A DNA stretch of 23,193 bases from Candidatus Baldrarchaeum yapensis (GTDB lineage: Archaea > Asgardarchaeota > Baldrarchaeia > Baldrarchaeales > Baldrarchaeaceae): positions 1-23,193 of the forward strand of contig JAEOSH010000035.1 of NCBI GenBank assembly GCA_016840465.1, given 5' to 3'. A program made the translations under genes and the position numbers. A model generated the notes under the pieces. The model searched no databases, was not told where the DNA came from, and saw only the letters and a program-made list of their open reading frames with translations. This document shows, piece after piece, positions 2,830 to 15,644 of the stretch. Numbering within the stretch: position 1 is the stretch's first letter; every line of letters starts with the position of its first letter.

Positions 2830-3293
2830 GGAACCACCATATCGGCCTTTAAGATTTTGATGCTCACCGTTCACGATTAGATGCAGCATTGGGAATATAA
2901 GAGAAGCTATCTCAATAATTTTTCCCAGGCCCTGAGGGCTCCTATTATTGGAGTCGGCGCACAGGTGGAATCAGGAATGGGGAGAAGATCAAAACTTAAG
3001 GATCTGGAATTCATGTTCACATTCGTCCCCATGCTGATATCGCTCAAAATGTTTATGTGGTGGCGTAGTGGCATTTTGCGAGCTACTTACCATCAACACT
3101 CTTCCTTCATTCTGGGAGCAATCCGTGGGAAATCTCCGTGATGTTTTAATAACTCTTTAGACCAGTGGATCGGCGCTACCCTATTTTTCGATGGAAACCT
3201 CCCGCACAGGATCATCAGGACAATACGATAAGTTCCGTACATTTTAAGTACTTAGAACGGAATAAGAGAATTAAAAAACAAATGGTGAGGTAG
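2830..3293. other. Divergent intergenic region between FAH and the ATPase-TOPRIM pair
   Basis: 464 nt between divergent starts. An 86-codon plus-strand frame at 2881-3141 has no ribosome binding site, no recognisable domain and erratic composition, so I do not count it as a gene. The right end holds the dyad and TATA-like element listed separately. I see no RNA gene or transposon remnant in the rest. Confidence 0.6.
3233..3262. promoter_or_regulatory. Inverted repeat bracketing a TATA-like box upstream of the ATPase
   Basis: TTCCGT at 3233-3238 is matched by its exact complement ACGGAA at 3257-3262. The 18-nt spacer contains ATTTTAAGTA (3241-3250), a plausible archaeal TATA element about 45 nt before the TTG start at 3294. 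Paired arms around a TATA box suit a repressor operator. The binding protein is unknown. Confidence 0.4.
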
Positions 3294-4577
3294 TTGCTTC
3301 GCATTTTTCCGAGGAAGATTGGAGTGAAAAACTTCAAGTCCCTTAGAGATGTCGAAATTGACCTGACAAAGGTAAATATCGTTATAGGGCCAAACGGCAG
3401 CGGGAAAACCAGCCTTGTGGAGGCACTCTATCTCTTAAAGCTTATAGTGGAGCATGTGAGGGGGAGGGTGATAAATCCCTTCCTTGAATGGTGGGGGTAC
3501 CAGGAAGTAGTATGGAATCACGATGAAAAACTCAATATAGAGCTATGTGTGGGGTTCGACATCGAATTCGGACCAGAGGGATTTCTTTCAAAACTGATCA
3601 AGAAGTTCGAAAACACCGATCATCTTTCGCTAAAAAATGTCTCGTATAGAATTTCGGTTACGGGGAAGGGAGGAAGATTCCAGATACTCCGTGAAGAGAT
3701 AGGCTTCAGGAATTTGAAAGTAATTTCAGAAATGGGAGCCTATAAAGTGATGTTTTCCGGGAAAGAGTTCCCCATAGGCGAAGATATATACGAGCCCACG
3801 TTTTTGCATTTAGTATTCGAAGGCATGCGGCTGTACATGCACGAAGATCCTGAAAGTCGCGTGGAGCATGTGATCGAACATTTATGGGGCAATTATGCCC
3901 TACTGCCCAACAATATTGATGGAATCTACGATTTGGCACTACCAGTAATTTTGACATCGATTTATGCCCTCATGGATAGCATGGCTATACTCAGAATAGT
4001 TAACTATGATGCCATGAAGGAGCCATCCAAGCATATAGCTGTCGAGGCACTCTCGATGGATGCAAGTAACCTTCCATCGCTGATTCTCACCCTCTACGGG
4101 GGCAATATCCCAGATAATGTGATCTCGTCGATCGCTTATATCTTAGGCGAAGACGAAAAACGCATAAAGCTGGGTATCAGACCAACCACGGATGGGCGGT
4201 CCTTCCTGACGCTTACAATCGGAAACATCGAGCATCTGCCTCCATCCATACCCGATGGTGTACTTAAAATGCTAGCAATGGAGATCGCGATCGACCAGAG
4301 AGTACCGTTGCTTGTAGTGGACGAAATAGAAAACTCGTTGCATGCCAAGGCGATCCACAGGCTACTGGATGATATCAGAAACTCGAGTACAACGTTGCTC
4401 GCTACGACCCATAGTCCGGCCGTGATAGACATAGTCAAACCGGAGGAAATTATAATTTTGGAGAGGAAGGACACCGAAACTACTGCTAGCAGGATATCCG
4501 ATCCGAAGAAATTGTCTAATAAGCTTAAGGACTTGGGAGTAACTTTAAGTGAGTACCTTACATACATCCGACCATGA
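3294..4577 (+). CDS. OLD/RecF-like AAA ATPase (ABC-type), ATPase half of a PARIS/OLD-like pair
   Basis: 427-aa SMC/RecF-related ABC ATPase of the AAA_15/AAA_21 group used by OLD nucleases, Gabija GajA and PARIS AriA. It opens with the usual IGVKNFKSLRDVEIDL strand-loop. Walker A is GPNGSGKT (32-39). A central helical insert is followed by a degenerate signature-like PPSIPDGVLKML. Walker B is LLVVDEIE (Asp343, Glu344), and the switch His373 lies in ATTHSP. There is no C-terminal TOPRIM domain. Instead, the next gene starts inside this stop codon (ATGA) and supplies one, so the two halves are probably co-translated partners. The TTG start at 3294 is supported by GGTGAGG 3 nt upstream and by reaching the family N-terminus. 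The expected role is ATP-dependent sensing and control of the partner nuclease. The ATPase family is firm; the defence role is inferred. Confidence 0.88.
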   Translation: MLRIFPRKIGVKNFKSLRDVEIDLTKVNIVIGPNGSGKTSLVEALYLLKLIVEHVRGRVINPFLEWWGYQEVVWNHDEKLNIELCVGFDIEFGPEGFLSKLIKKFENTDHLSLKNVSYRISVTGKGGRFQILREEIGFRNLKVISEMGAYKVMFSGKEFPIGEDIYEPTFLHLVFEGMRLYMHEDPESRVEHVIEHLWGNYALLPNNIDGIYDLALPVILTSIYALMDSMAILRIVNYDAMKEPSKHIAVEALSMDASNLPSLILTLYGGNIPDNVISSIAYILGEDEKRIKLGIRPTTDGRSFLTLTIGNIEHLPPSIPDGVLKMLAMEIAIDQRVPLLVVDEIENSLHAKAIHRLLDDIRNSSTTLLATTHSPAVIDIVKPEEIIILERKDTETTASRISDPKKLSNKLKDLGVTLSEYLTYIRP

Positions 4578-5074
4578 AACTTCTCTACGTAGAGGACACA
4601 TATGCCGAAGAAGCACTGAAAATGCTTGTCGAGAAACTTAAGGAAATGAATATAATAGAACGTGGAATGAAGGTCGTGGTTAAGTTTATACCCGGTTTAT
4701 GCAGTACAAAGTTCGAACGCGTATTAAAAGCGGCATCTGAGGAGTATGAGAAGGTCATAATACTCATAGATGGTCATGGAGACCCTGATGGTGCTAAAAA
4801 GAGGGAGGAGGAGCACTTACCGAGAGAGGAGAAACTTAGAGAAAAAATTGTTATTGTCGTAAACAGGTATGAAATCGAAGAGTGGATACTTTATGCGAAA
4901 GGAATACCTCAAGATCCGGCGCCAAGTAAGAAACTCTGGGAGATTACTCGTGGGAACTATACAAAAAGGAATTTGCCAAGAGAAATCGAGAAAATCCTAA
5001 GAAACGAGGATGAACTGAAGAAGTTGCTTTCGTACTCCGTACTACAGATATTATTGAGGGCCTTAACTTCATGA
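4574..5074 (+). CDS. Small stand-alone TOPRIM-like nuclease (DUF4276/DUF3226-like), partner of the ATPase
   Basis: 166-aa protein with the spaced acidic signature of a TOPRIM fold. There is an N-terminal strand with Glu7 (LLYVEDTYAE), then VIILIDGHGDPDG with Asp66 and Asp70 as the DxD-like pair, then NRYEIEEWIL (Glu100, Glu102/103), the late motif of DUF4276/DUF3226-like proteins. These would bind Mg2+ for nucleic-acid cleavage. The gene overlaps the ATPase stop by 4 nt and has no promoter of its own, the organisation of split OLD systems such as PARIS AriA-AriB. It is only about half the length I recall for AriB, so it is not a close AriB homologue. The target (DNA or tRNA) cannot be predicted. 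The TOPRIM call rests on motif order, not an alignment. Confidence 0.7.
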   Translation: MKLLYVEDTYAEEALKMLVEKLKEMNIIERGMKVVVKFIPGLCSTKFERVLKAASEEYEKVIILIDGHGDPDGAKKREEEHLPREEKLREKIVIVVNRYEIEEWILYAKGIPQDPAPSKKLWEITRGNYTKRNLPREIEKILRNEDELKKLLSYSVLQILLRALTS

Positions 5075-5128: not shown

Positions 5129-5383
5129 TCAAAAATCACCACTACTGGTCAATACCCAAACGAAACGTTTGATTCTTTCTGTTTGTGGAAGTAGAGTTTC
5201 TTCTTTAATCAATTCTTCGTAAAGATGCTCTACTGTTTGGTAACCGAGTGGTTTATTGACTAAACTTAATAAGTATCGAGCCCCTTCTAAGTCTTGAGTT
5301 ATTGTATAGGCTATAAGGGGACTACCTGCATGTATGATGACGTGAAGGGCATAATTTTTAATATTCAAAGGTTCTCTCTCCAC
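5129..5383 (-). CDS. AT-rich hypothetical ORF or remnant, overlapping the activase start
   Basis: 84-codon frame, internally protein-like (mixed helix-forming stretches such as GYQTVEHLYEELIKEE), ending at 5129. I recognise no family. Its codons end mostly in A or T (AAA, TTA, GAA), unlike the GC-ending codons of neighbouring genes, which suggests a foreign fragment. The first ATG would overlap the first 54 nt of the oppositely oriented activase gene, so if real it probably starts further inside or is only a decayed tail. A 15-nt dyad CAAACGAAACGTTTG (5157-5171) lies within it. Confidence 0.3.
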   Translation of the reverse strand: MEREPLNIKNYALHVIIHAGSPLIAYTITQDLEGARYLLSLVNKPLGYQTVEHLYEELIKEETLLPQTERIKRFVWVLTSSGDF

Positions 5384-9753: not shown

Positions 9754-10480
9754 ATGAGCCCAGAGAACATAATTAAATTGAGGAACGTCGTGAAGATATA
9801 CGAAATGGGACGAGTGAAGGTGCACGCGCTCCGCGGTGTCAACTTCTCCGAAAGAGAGGGGAATTTGTGGTGACCCCCAGCCCCAGCGGGTCCGGGAGAC
9901 CACTCTCCTCAACATCATCGGCGGGCGTGGACAGGCCCACCCTCCGGCGAGGTTATAGTCAACGGGGTAAGGCTTAACGATTTGAGCGAGGAGGAACTCA
10001 CGAACTTTCGGCGTAGGAATATAGGCTTCGTCTTCCAGTTTTTCAATCTCATACCCACGCTCACCGCCAAGGAGAACGTAATGCTGGCGCTGGAACTGAG
10101 AGGGCTTTCTGGGAAAGAGATGGAGGCAGAGGCTCTCAGGTTACTTTCCGAAGTGGAGCTTGAGAAGCGGGCGGATCACTTTCCATCGGAACTCTCCGGT
10201 GGGGGAGCAGCAAAGAGTCGCAATAGCTCGTGCCCTCGCGAAGGATCCGCTGTTGCTGTTATGTGACGAGCCAACCGGGGAGCTTAATGTGGAATCCGGC
10301 AAGGCGGTTTTATCGGTGTTGAAGAGGGTAAATGAGGAAAAGGGAAAGACGATAGTCCTTGTGACCCACAACACGGTCATTGCAAACATAGCGTCGGGGG
10401 CGGTCCGTTTAAGGGACGGCAGAATAGTAGAAGAGTGGAAGATCGAGCGACCGGTTAGTGTTGAGGAGTTGAGTTGGTGA
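9754..10480 (+). pseudogene. ABC transporter ATP-binding protein (MacB/LolD type), frame broken by five single-base indels
   Basis: It would be a 241-aa ATPase powering the adjacent FtsX-type permease. The start at 9754 (GGTGAGG 3 nt upstream) gives MSPENIIKLRNVVKIYEMG. Restoring the frame needs one base added near 9859 (G run) and 9896 (A), and one removed near 9925 (G), 9942 (C) and 10202 (G run). The result is PSGSGKTTLLNIIGG (Walker A), NIGFVFQFFNLIPTLT (Q-loop), ELSGGEQQRVAIARAL (signature), LLLLCDEPTGELN (Walker B) and LVTHN (H-loop). The first Walker A glycine reads as Ser, and the D-loop GELN differs from the usual GNLD. All five defects are length changes in short runs, and the intervening protein is well conserved, so sequencing error is as likely as true decay. 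Confidence 0.85.
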
Positions 10481-10486
10481 GATCGC

Positions 10487-12861
10487 ATGCCGTCGGTTCT
10501 CATAAGGAAGTTGTTGCGTGACATGTCGAGGAATCGCGTCCAGTTCATCGCACTCAGCATAACGGTTATGGTTGGCGTCGCCTTCTACTCGTCACTTGTC
10601 ACGGCGATGAACAACCTCGTAAGATCTTGCGACTACGCATATGAGCAGTTGCGCTTTGCGGCCTTCTCAATAGTGTTCGGGCCGGCTCCCCGGACTGTGC
10701 TTGATGACCTGATGAAGATAGACAATGTGAAGTCTCTGGAGGGCCGGCTTGTTACGAACATAGGAATCTACATCAACGAGGACAGGCAGATACCCGGTCT
10801 CGCAATTGGTATAAACTCCATGCACAAGCTCACCGTCAATGACGTGAAGGGGGAGTCCGGTAGGTACTTCAATCCCGAAGAAGGGGAGCATGTCTGCTCG
10901 AGCGGCACTTTGCCGATGCGTACGGTTATAAGGAGGGAGACAACGTAACACTGATAGTTCATGGGAGGAAAATCAACGTCACGGTTGTGGGCGTGGTCTC
11001 AAGCCCCGAGTTTCTGATTCTCATGAGCGGGCTTTGGGAGTACTCGAGCGGTTATACCTACGGAGTCGTATTTCTTCCATTGAATGTCTTGCAGGCGGAA
11101 CTCGGAATACCAAATATGATAAACGAAGTTGTGGTGGTCGTTAAGGACAGGTCCAAGGTGGATGAGACAATTTCCGAATTTAAGAGGATGCTTGCGCCGT
11201 ACGATGTGATAAGGGTTCTGAAGAGGGAGGAACAGCCCTCATATAGGGCGTTAAAATGGGACATTGAAGGGTTTAGAGAGATATCGGTGGTGTTTCCGGC
11301 ACTGATACTGCTGGTGGCGGCTGTGGAAATATACACCACGCTGAGAAGGCTGATAATTTCGCAGCAGCGCGAGATAGGTGTCCTGAAAACGATGGGGTTC
11401 AGCACACGCCGTATAGTTCTCCATTACATGTCGTTTGCGTTGGTGGCCGGAATAGCAGGGTCCGTTCCGGGAGCCCTCCTCTCGATATGGATATCAGCCG
11501 AGATAACAAAGTTCTACACGAGATCGCTCGGCATACCCTTTACTCTCGTCTCCGTGGACCATCTCGCGATATTGCAAGGCGTAGTAATTGGCGTGATTGC
11601 ATGCATGGCGGGCGCGATTCTGCCAAGTCTCGCGGTTACTAGGTTGAAGCCTGTTGAGATCCTCCGCCCGTACATAAGTGCATCCATGGTCAGGGGGAGG
11701 GTTCCGCTCATTGAGAGGGCCATCATTAGGATCAAGAGTATCTCCATCCGCGCCCGGCTCACGATTAGGAACCTTTTCAGGAACAGAATCAGAACGGGGA
11801 CGACGGTTCTCGGCATAGCTTTTAGCGTAATGCTGGTGTTCTCGATTGTGAGTTTCATGGATAGCTTTTACGCCAATGTTGGCACTCAATACGATCATCA
11901 CATGAGATGGGACCTGCGTGTGCGTTTTTCGACGATGAAAAACGTCAGCGAAATTTACAAGATCGGTGAGTGGGATGGCGTGATCTCTGTGGAGCCATTC
12001 ATAATGGGGATCGCGACAGTGAGCTTTGGCGGCAAGTCCGTCGAGACGGTGATTATAGCGTACCCGAAGAACACATCCATGCACGTGTTCAACATAATTA
12101 ATGGTGAAGGGCTGAAGGACGGTGCAGTTGTGCTAGGAGAGGGGCTTGCAGCGAAGCTGGGAGTGTCCGTGGGTGATGAGGTTCGCGTGAACATAACTTT
12201 CGCAGGAACGGTTCTAAGGGTATCAGGAATAGACAGAGAGCCGTTAATGCTTCATGTTTGCTTTATGACGCTGAAAACCGCGCATGGGCTGTTCAACGCA
12301 ACTGATATGGCGAATGGTGCTCTCCTGAGAGTAGAGAGTGAAAGGATCCCCGACGTTAGGAGAAAGTTATATGAGGTGCCGGGTGTTGAGAGGGTCGATG
12401 TGAAGCATGAGGTAAAGGGAGAGTTCATACGCCTCCTCGACAGGTTTATGACGTTCGCGTACGTGATGCTTGTGATTTCGGTGTTAGTCGCGTCTTCCCT
12501 GATACTGAATATTATGACGACAAATGTGATGGAGCGGAGATACGAGGTTGCAACTCTGAGGATACTTGGCGTCGGCATGAGATCACTTCTCGCATCGATA
12601 GCGCTTGAAAACGTCATCATGGTTGCGTTAGGGATACTGATCGGCTGCACGTTTGGATACCTGACCGCGTGGTCCCTGATACAGGTGTTTCTTTGGGCGG
12701 TTTCCGAGCAGATGTTGACCCTCGAATTGGTGATCAGTCCGATGAGCGTCCTGCTGATATCGTTAGTGGTACTGGTGGCGGCGGTCCTTTCTCAAATACC
12801 CGCAATGCGCTACGTATCGAAGATAAACTTGGCGCGCGCGGTTAAGGAGGCGGCCCTATAG
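10487..12861 (+). CDS. ABC transporter permease, FtsX/MacB-like (one frameshift near 10893)
   Basis: A roughly 791-aa permease once one base (C) is restored near 10893, where GTCTGCTCGAG should read GTCCTGCTCGAG. As sequenced, it is two frames, 10487-10948 and 10960s-12861. The layout is a duplicated FtsX architecture. An N-terminal membrane helix (FIALSITVMVGVAFYSSLVT) precedes an external MacB-like domain and three helices around 265-410 (ISVVFPALILLVAAVEIYTT, MSFALVAGIAGSVPGALLSI, VVIGVIACMAGAILPSLAV). A second unit has one helix (TTVLGIAFSVMLVFSIVSF), another external domain and three C-terminal helices ending in VLLISLVVLVAAVLSQIPA. The gene starts 6 nt after the ATPase stop, so the two form one operon. 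The likely role is substrate extrusion or lipid/lipoprotein-type transport across the cell membrane; the cargo is unknown. Confidence 0.88.
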
Positions 12862-12873
12862 TGGCGGGATGTG

Positions 12874-13272
12874 TTAGAGGGTGCTCTCTAACCTAAACCT
12901 CATTTCTCCCAATTCGGCCAGATACACGACCTTGAACCTCCTGTGCCTCTCGTATTCGAGGATGAGGATGACCTCAAGCCCGGCATCCAGCGCCATTCTC
13001 GCAAAGCCGTAATCCATAGTCACAACCATGGAGTATCCGTTCTTCGTCGCGAAATCTATTATTTCTCTATCCTTTGCGTCTCTGAGGCGGTCATCCTCAC
13101 CCACGTGGAGAAACTCGCTTCCCGCGAGGAACCTCCTTATTTCCCTGAAAACCTCACCTCCCACGTTCTTATCTACGATGATTCTCCAGTTTCTGCTTTT
13201 AATCGCGCTTTTGAGTCTTCTGATGTGATCGTTCAAGTTTTCAGTCGCATCAACATCATGAACGTCGTCCAA
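12874..13272 (-). CDS. PIN-like nuclease domain protein (DUF5615-like)
   Basis: 132-aa protein with the spaced acidic residues of the PIN-like DUF5615 fold: RIIVDKNVGGEVF (Asp34), KDREIIDFATKNGY (Asp68, Glu70) and SMVVTMDYGFAR (Asp87), then LDAGLEVILIL. Such proteins are usually RNase toxins or components of toxin-antitoxin-like modules. The TTG start at 13272 is chosen because GGTGGTG lies 7 nt upstream and a TATA element sits about 45 nt upstream. The first ATG (13332) would place the start upstream of the TATA box. No obvious antitoxin adjoins it: the next gene on the same strand is far away, and the divergent neighbour is a HEAT-repeat protein. The toxin role is therefore unproven. It converges on the permease gene. 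Confidence 0.65.
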   Translation of the reverse strand: MDDVHDVDATENLNDHIRRLKSAIKSRNWRIIVDKNVGGEVFREIRRFLAGSEFLHVGEDDRLRDAKDREIIDFATKNGYSMVVTMDYGFARMALDAGLEVILILEYERHRRFKVVYLAELGEMRFRLESTL

Positions 13273-13316
13273 GAGGGGACACCACCAGCTGTTTAGATTT
13301 ACAAGAGGGTCGTCAC

Positions 13317-13323
13317 ATATATA
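13317..13323. promoter_or_regulatory. Shared, symmetric TATA element between divergent genes
   Basis: ATATATA reads as a TATA box on both strands. It is 33 nt from the ATG at 13356 on the plus strand and 45 nt from the TTG at 13272 on the minus strand. Both distances suit archaeal promoters with short leaders. Confidence 0.4.
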
Positions 13324-13355
13324 GGTGAACATCGGGCCCGGAGTGGAGCGGCTCC

Positions 13356-14633: not shown

Positions 14634-14663
14634 GAATCCTGCGAACAGTATTTGGGAGAAGAG

Positions 14664-15644
14664 ATGGCGGTCACGGCGGAGCAGATCATAAAGTTACTGG
14701 AGGAGAACCCCGAACTCGCAAGGAAGATATATGAGATACTTAGGGAAAGGTTCGTCGAGAGGAGGGAGTTGAAAGAGATATTGGAGGAAATCAAACATCT
14801 ACGCGGAGACACGAATAAACTTTTTGAGAGAATGCTGTCACTCGAACGAGAGATGGGAGCCATGCGCAGGGACTTCAATGAAGCAATAAAGCGGATGAGG
14901 GAGGATTTCAACCGGGAAATTTCGAGTCTGAGAGTAGAGTTCAATGAATCTATGAAGCGTTTACGCGAAGATTTCAATAGAGAGATCTTAAACTTGAGGG
15001 TGGAGTTTAATGAGTCCATGAAGCGTTTGCGTGAGGACTTCAACCGGGAGATCTCGAACTTGCGAGCAGAGTTTAATGAATCGATGAAACGGATGAGAGA
15101 GGATTTCAACCGGGAGATTATAAAGTTGCGGACCGAGTTCAACGAGTCCATGAAACGTATGCGTGAAGACTTTAATTACCAAATGATTTCGTTGCGAAGA
15201 GAGACCGATCAACGAGTCACACGCTTGGAAAAATCCATTCGGGGTCTGTTTGCGGCGCTAAGCGAGATCAGGGTGTTTGCAGGCATGTCGTTCGAGGAGT
15301 TCGTCAGAAGCTTCCTGACGGGATACCTTAGGGAGGCGGGGATTCCTCCGGAGGGGGTTAAGCTAAAGTCGAAAAAGTTCTGGGATGAGGAGAAGAGGAG
15401 GGAGGTCGAAATCAACATCTTCTACGAAGAGCCGCTCGTTGTGGGGGAGGCGACCGCCGTTGCCGAATCGATGACCGAACTCGAAAAATTGATAGAGAAG
15501 GTGGAGTTTGTGAAGAAGGTTTACAGGCGGGAGCCTGCCGCCAAGTTCTTTATTGCCATTTCAATATCTAGGAAGATATTCGACGAGTTGATGGAGATGG
15601 CCGAAAGACACGGCATAGAGGTAATTTACGGAAGAATAGTTTGA
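14664..15644 (+). CDS. DUF3782/COG5493-type coiled-coil protein with PD-(D/E)XK-like C-terminal domain
   Basis: 326 aa. A short helical head (1-60) precedes a long coiled coil (about 60-195). Its centre is ten 11-residue repeats, alternating EFNESMKRMRE and DFNREISNLRV, from residue 70 to 179. The C-terminal domain (about 205-326) starts with SFEEFVRSFLTGYLREAG and holds EVEINIFYEEPLVVGEATA, with acidic residues 247, 249 and 262 in the place of a PD-(D/E)XK nuclease centre; the usual Lys after the last Glu is not evident (EAT). This combination is common in TACK archaea, and its function is unknown. The ATG at 14664 has GGGAG 5 nt upstream; an in-frame TTG at 14652 would overlap that site. 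The gene is monocistronic by its promoter. Confidence 0.8.
   Translation: MAVTAEQIIKLLEENPELARKIYEILRERFVERRELKEILEEIKHLRGDTNKLFERMLSLEREMGAMRRDFNEAIKRMREDFNREISSLRVEFNESMKRLREDFNREILNLRVEFNESMKRLREDFNREISNLRAEFNESMKRMREDFNREIIKLRTEFNESMKRMREDFNYQMISLRRETDQRVTRLEKSIRGLFAALSEIRVFAGMSFEEFVRSFLTGYLREAGIPPEGVKLKSKKFWDEEKRREVEINIFYEEPLVVGEATAVAESMTELEKLIEKVEFVKKVYRREPAAKFFIAISISRKIFDELMEMAERHGIEVIYGRIV
14871..15200 (+). repeat. Five tandem 66-bp units encoding 22-residue (2 x 11) coiled-coil repeats
   Basis: Each unit encodes an EFNESMKR half followed by a DFNREI half. The protein repeats are nearly identical while the DNA differs at many synonymous positions (CGTTTACGC, CGTTTGCGT and CGGATGAGA all sit at the same place). 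The array is therefore old and kept by selection on protein, rather than freshly slipped. Confidence 0.85.

Follow-up and report, generated by a model that had tools for sequence, protein, structure and literature searches.

Two overlapping genes of the Asgard archaeon Candidatus Baldrarchaeum yapensis encode an OLD/RecF-like ATPase and a small protein with TOPRIM-like acidic motifs. This locus raises the question of whether the pair represents an archaeal version of the split defence system PARIS (AriA-AriB), another kind of conflict module, or a component of the regular cellular machinery. Antiviral systems of archaea, and above all of Asgard archaea, are thinly described. The pair was analysed within a stretch of 23,193 nucleotides (contig JAEOSH010000035.1), referred to here as the window, where it is delimited by the following features:

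3242–3250, plus strand: TTTTAAGTA, TATA-like sequence of a probable archaeal promoter, read by eye
3284–3291, plus strand: GGTGAGGT, probable ribosome-binding sequence before the TTG start of the ATPase gene, read by eye
3294–4577, plus strand: gene of an OLD/RecF-like ABC ATPase of 427 aa, TTG start, without TOPRIM, from the ORF call and profile matches
4574–4577, plus strand: ATGA overlap of the ATPase and small-protein genes
4574–5074, plus strand: gene of the small protein of 166 aa, ATG start, with a predicted TOPRIM fold, a divergent relative of DUF4276

The first-pass annotation had described an ATPase gene and the gene of a 166-aa protein sharing ATGA, and both the coordinates and the strand were correct. 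Since TTTTAAGTA and GGTGAGGT precede the TTG start, the pair is probably under the control of its own promoter.

Comparison across genomes showed that the ATPase and the small protein genuinely belong together as a unit. In each of the 20 complete loci, four from Asgard archaea (including the window) and 16 from the Thermococcus phylum, the TOPRIM gene was immediately preceded by the ATPase gene on the same strand, and the two genes overlapped by four nucleotides in 13 loci. The earlier expectation that both genes would be found together elsewhere was thus borne out, with the same gene order in three further Asgard and 16 Thermococcus-phylum genomes. The pair was present in 4 of the 227 genomes of the phylum to which the window belongs, next to one weak remnant, and in the Thermococcus phylum 20 of 115 genomes encode the small protein, whole or in part. 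Thermococcus comparisons gave dN/dS values mostly between 0.06 and 0.16 for both genes, indicating purifying selection; a value of 1.3 came from two very closely related small genes, of which one is damaged at the C-terminus. Searches of viral contigs with either protein or with a 4-row alignment yielded no homologue, and neither did searches of phage and plasmid records. In the phage family phrog_3940 (537 positions), positions 251–337 matched the C-terminal part of the ATPase and positions 351–480 the small protein, so that this family is apparently a fused form of this type of ATPase with the small TOPRIM protein.

The sequence of the ATPase displays the following elements:

Residues ~31–39: Walker A, GPNGSGKT
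Walker B: LLVVDEIE, including E344
H-loop: THSP, including H373
Family motif: P62...W66-W67-x-Y69
Residues ~141–250: hypervariable middle region

Matches to the Pfam families AAA_21 (6.7e-18), AAA_15 (3.5e-17) and SMC_N (1e-13) were obtained, and the best match among PDB sequences was the OLD-family protein 6p74. All features of an OLD-like ABC ATPase are present, and from the invariance of K38, E344 and H373 in the 20 family members it is inferred that the protein should hydrolyse ATP. The middle region (residues 141–250) accounts for about 47 inserted residues per homologue. Profile search found no TOPRIM domain within the ATPase. The structure of the ATPase was predicted by AlphaFold with low confidence (pLDDT of 47).

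In the small protein, four groups of residues were defined as motifs:

E7-D8
D66-G-H68-G
E100-I-E-E103
C-terminal Y129-x-K131...L134

An AlphaFold model calculated from six sequences displayed a TOPRIM-like fold with a pLDDT of 90.8. E7 lies after strand 1 and D66 after strand 3 of this model, the positions at which TOPRIM proteins carry the catalytic glutamate and the DxD motif, respectively, and the invariant E100-I-E-E103 starts the helix following strand 4. Realignment of Foldseek candidates with VIA-align, for which Z scores below 8 are not strong on their own, identified PH0156 (2p62) as the top match (Z 10.8 over 160 residues, 22% identity), along with BpOLD (Z 9.7 over 145 residues), XccOLD (8.9) and GajA (8.3), followed at lower ranks by T7 primase and the small TOPRIM protein 2fcj (both near 7), retron Eco2 and AriB (8v46, Z 6.5). 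Foldseek alone gave nothing under an E value of 0.001 for the small protein (best E value of 0.037), and neither single-sequence nor profile search detected a relative among the PDB sequences. On the basis of the model, the TOPRIM fold of the small protein is confidently predicted. The earlier reading of the locus as a single operon made of an OLD-like ATPase without TOPRIM and a separate TOPRIM protein was supported. PH0156 of Pyrococcus horikoshii, the best structural match, is a longer protein of 241 aa with a solved structure.

The acidic residues of the putative active site are highly conserved: E7 and D66 were found in all 20 members of the small-protein family and D68 in 19 of them. The copy of the window is the exception, as its DxD stretch reads D66-G-H68-G-D70 (4769–4783), with His68 in place of the second aspartate and Asp70 two residues further on. 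The difference between His68 and Asp68 corresponds to one base (CAT instead of GAT). Judged from the sequence, the DxD site of the window copy could be altered or inactive, and because 19 of 20 relatives carry aspartate where it has His68, its nuclease may be weakened.

The split layout, with ATPase and TOPRIM protein encoded by two adjacent genes, is the one known from PARIS, and the pair had initially been proposed to belong to that system. An archaeal AriA-AriB in the proper sense would also agree with the overall OLD-type architecture that both share, with the match of AriA models to all 20 ATPases and with AriB appearing among the structural matches of the small protein. A series of results spoke against it, however. 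Comparison of the small family with a DUF4435 (AriB) set by hhalign gave a probability of 0.2%, which is weak evidence given a set of only four sequences, and Pfam DUF4435 matched none of the 20 family members. AriB, a DUF4435 protein, is also longer: the AriB-type proteins found here measured about 300 aa. The models of HEC-01A and MAD3 outscored that of AriA for the ATPase, and the two AriA-type ATPases included in the tree were placed apart on a separate branch with a length of 3.4 and a support of 100. Moreover, OLD proteins of Class 4 (PARIS) were reported exclusively from bacteria in a published survey (PMC12796447). Membership in PARIS is thus considered extremely unlikely. Overall, the original observation was confirmed, and its first interpretation was partly supported. 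In PARIS, a hexamer of AriA holds AriB, and phage triggers free AriB as a tRNA-cutting dimer (PMC12409363). Although it is not PARIS by the tests applied here, the pair may operate in a similar manner.

Other members of the OLD family were considered as well. OLD proteins of classes 1 and 2 (BpOLD, XccOLD, GajA) contain the same type of ATPase, and their TOPRIM domains were matched by the small protein with Z scores of 7.7–9.7, but they carry both domains in one chain, unlike the two-gene pair. Gabija (GajA-GajB) was rejected, since the ATPase lacks a fused TOPRIM domain and no helicase is encoded among the neighbours of the pair. Cran1, an archaeal OLD protein of class 5, is a single-chain protein whose role seems to lie in the cell cycle instead of defence, and which is vertically inherited and could not be deleted (PMC12796447). 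The pair was not assigned to this class either, as it consists of two chains and has a scattered presence.

The small protein was next placed among the families of short TOPRIM-like proteins. The window protein reached 15.0 bits (E value of 0.03) with the Pfam model of DUF4276 (PF14103), which is below the gathering cut-off of 30.2, and 13 of the 20 family members were matched by this model at an E value of 1 or lower, the best being 0.0025. Comparison of profiles was much clearer: aligned by hhalign to the DUF4276 set, the 20-row small family obtained a probability of 97.2% over 161 columns, i.e. over the whole domain, against 3.5% for the reversed profile and at most 0.6% for eight shuffles. 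The window protein alone reached 94.4%. With 166 aa and this profile match, the short nuclease half and its resemblance to DUF4276, both remarked upon at the outset, were well founded.

Reference loci of DUF4276 were collected from Asgard and deltaproteobacterial genomes (n = 25, from which two fragments were dropped). In each of the 23 usable loci an ATPase gene immediately preceded the DUF4276 gene on its strand, frequently with an overlap, and the encoded ATPases matched the ATPase profile of the pair with E values from 3e-33 to 9e-15. In the ATPase tree, the archaeal pairs formed one clade (support of 98) and the DUF4276-linked ATPases another one (83), in agreement with the suggestion of a separate archaeal branch; the ATPase of the window thereby groups with the DUF4276-linked ATPases and away from those of AriA type. 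The tree was rooted at midpoint and contains long branches, and whether the archaeal clade is sister to the HEC-01-type ATPases or nested within them varies with root and sampling.

The upstream ATPases, the hhalign result and the ATPase tree together place the pair, by sequence comparison, in the broad ATPase–DUF4276 kind, a bacterial family of candidate defence systems known as HEC-01 in PADLOC and as MAD3-MAD4 of MADS, and as a separate archaeal branch of it. HEC-01A was the first PADLOC model for the ATPase, followed by MAD3, AbiLi and AriA; the HEC-01A and MAD3 models each matched all 20 ATPases, and HEC-01A scored best for every one of them. HEC-01, a candidate defence system of PADLOC, likewise consists of an ATPase (HEC-01A) encoded first and a DUF4276-like protein (HEC-01B) encoded second, in adjacent and often overlapping genes. 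In contrast to HEC-01, the archaeal ATPases group in their own clade, the archaeal small proteins are shorter (~165–180 versus ~185–245 aa) and share the motifs EDxYG, C-x2-K and EIEEW, and the small protein of the window gave marginal matches to the models of HEC-01B (E value of 0.026) and DUF4276. The methylation-associated defence system (MADS) also combines an ATPase, MAD3, with a DUF4276-like neighbour, MAD4. MAD3 was the top NCBIfam match of the ATPase (6.7e-26, 91.4 bits with a cut-off of 420) and MAD4 the top PADLOC match of the small protein (0.0025), which obtained 12.4 bits with the NCBIfam model of MAD4 (cut-off of 160). The cut-offs of MADS were therefore missed, and neither a methylase nor other MADS-like genes were seen near the pair. 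The archaeal branch is called new here, and the classification of ABC ATPases by Aravind and colleagues may already describe related pairs. The analysis provides a predicted fold and probable catalytic residues for a family which is only marginally matched by the models used for finding defence systems.

The most informative distribution was that in Thermococcus. In most carriers of this genus, the pair alone makes up a cassette of about 1.85 kb, placed exactly between pth2 and truD, and the start of truD was overlapping in most of them. The empty site was recognized in 17 of the 20 non-carriers examined, where the stop codon of pth2 is followed by three nucleotides and the ATG of truD. One Thermococcus-phylum genome (G262) harbours the pair at another site, between the genes of CDP-archaeol synthase and a GTPase. 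Decayed copies were identified in two genomes (G256 and G261), and a broken copy in a deltaproteobacterium. On the tree of the flanking genes, the presence of the pair required 10 changes, of which at least seven are forced by supported branches; in about one third of the shuffles, this count was no fewer than that obtained with shuffled labels, i.e. the presence is as scattered as random.

Signs of exchange were also evident. The tree of the pair conflicts in places with that of the flanking genes (locus L052, and L042 against L047). At L052 (8532–9794, genome G252) and in genome G312, the truD beside the pair shares only ~65% identity with the truD of other Thermococcus, while aspS and pth2 of L052, unlike its truD, are close to those of the remaining Thermococcus; this truD looks as if it had been swapped along with the cassette. 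In the comparison of L045 with L048, the small genes hardly differ (dS of 0.14) and the ATPase genes differ strongly (dS of 1.18), a contrast which at the level of sequence shows recombination between both genes of the pair. The tree conflicts, the divergent truD and the contrast in dS all point to exchange by recombination.

These data bear on two explanations which place the pair in the regular life of the cell. One is a housekeeping role in the control of DNA or of the cell cycle, as for Cran1. There is precedent for such a role of an archaeal OLD protein (PMC12796447); most Thermococcus carriers have the pair at a fixed chromosomal place, and purifying selection acts on both genes. The low frequency given above (4 of 227 genomes in the phylum of the window, 20 of 115 in the Thermococcus phylum including pieces) argues against it, as do the scattered gain and loss and the decaying copies, all of which set the pair apart from the single-chain, vertically inherited and undeletable Cran1; a housekeeping function is accordingly held to be very unlikely. 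The other is a factor in the quality control of tRNA or translation that would be co-regulated with pth2, truD and aspS of Thermococcus. The location between pth2 and truD with the overlapping truD start fits such a factor, and the functionally similar AriB cleaves tRNA (PMC12409363), but the pair occupies a different site in G262 and the genes beside the Asgard copies are unrelated, which leaves this explanation quite improbable. In view of the scattered presence, the decayed copies and the clean site, a dispensable conflict module fits better than housekeeping.

Another explanation is a selfish module resembling toxin-antitoxin systems, in which the TOPRIM protein would be the toxin and the ATPase its partner and antidote, and which would be kept by addiction and stress response instead of virus defence. 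The overlap of the two genes is in line with it, as are their patchy occurrence, the decay of some copies and the exact manner in which the pair comes and goes at one place of the chromosome. In Pfam, AAA_21 is annotated as a putative AbiEii toxin, the ATPase of a type IV toxin-antitoxin system. An ATPase with all catalytic motifs and a hypervariable region is however better understood as a sensor than as a simple antidote, and close relatives of the pair are classed as defence candidates. This alternative therefore appears unlikely, less so than the two cellular roles.

The explanation that accounts best for the observations is a conflict module composed of a sensor ATPase and a TOPRIM nuclease, most likely antiviral and comparable to an OLD protein split in two, to which a probability of about 0.6 is given. 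By analogy with OLD, Gabija and PARIS, the ATPase would dimerise or oligomerise, with contacts made by its ABC-type ATP sites, and the small TOPRIM protein would dock on it and be held or positioned there under restraint. The probable sensor is the variable middle region of the ATPase, which would respond to a viral product or to a cellular change. Upon this trigger, the TOPRIM protein would be activated or released and would cut nucleic acid, either tRNA or DNA, with metal ions bound in the region of E7, D66 and E100/E103, and cleavage would lead to a stop of growth or to destruction of the invader. Trigger, substrate, outcome and formation of the complex are inferred here.

A more specific proposal can be made tentatively. 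The pair might constitute a distinct split-OLD class apart from PARIS, namely an archaeal ATPase–TOPRIM defence module whose stand-alone nuclease is unusually short and acts on tRNA or DNA. Thermococcus would gain and lose it as a scarless cassette at the conserved pth2–truD site, and one Asgard archaeon would have a version where DxD is rebuilt as DxHxD. Taken in all its parts, this proposal is possible, with the odds rather against it. The pair demonstrates the presence, in two distant archaeal groups, of a split OLD-type ATPase–nuclease allied to the DUF4276 branch and not to AriB; the published survey has split (class 4) OLD proteins from bacteria only (PMC12796447). As the site in Thermococcus is clean and the genus has cultured members amenable to genetics, the choice between defence and housekeeping is directly testable.

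A mobile or defence context had been proposed as well. It did not stand for the window itself, where neither profile search nor the neighbouring genes revealed a recognisable defence island, and it gained support from Thermococcus, where the pair is scattered in its presence and decayed in places. Among the identified neighbours of the pair no known defence gene was found, be it in the window, at the remaining Asgard loci or in Thermococcus. Part of the proposed context was an AT-rich ORF downstream of the pair, which had been regarded as foreign:

5129–5383, minus strand: AT-rich ORF of 84 aa, 37% GC, between the pair and the gene of a radical-SAM activating enzyme

This ORF matches no family and occurs as a single copy in the genome, and a transposon remnant was rejected on these grounds. 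It also runs into the beginning of the following gene and may be non-coding.

Several other features of the window were recorded. An ABC transporter has its ATP-binding gene spread over two overlapping frames (9982–10266 and 10160–10480), and its permease gene is likewise split (10487–10948 and 10987–12861); these splits are frameshifts, due either to decay or to sequencing error. A DUF5615 (PIN-like) protein is encoded on the minus strand at 12874–13332 with no evident partner adjoining; proteins of this type often occur in toxin-antitoxin settings. Finally, a coiled-coil protein is encoded at 14652–15644, which contains near-identical repeats of the type MKR(L/M)REDFNREI... and a C-terminal part that appears nuclease-like by eye.
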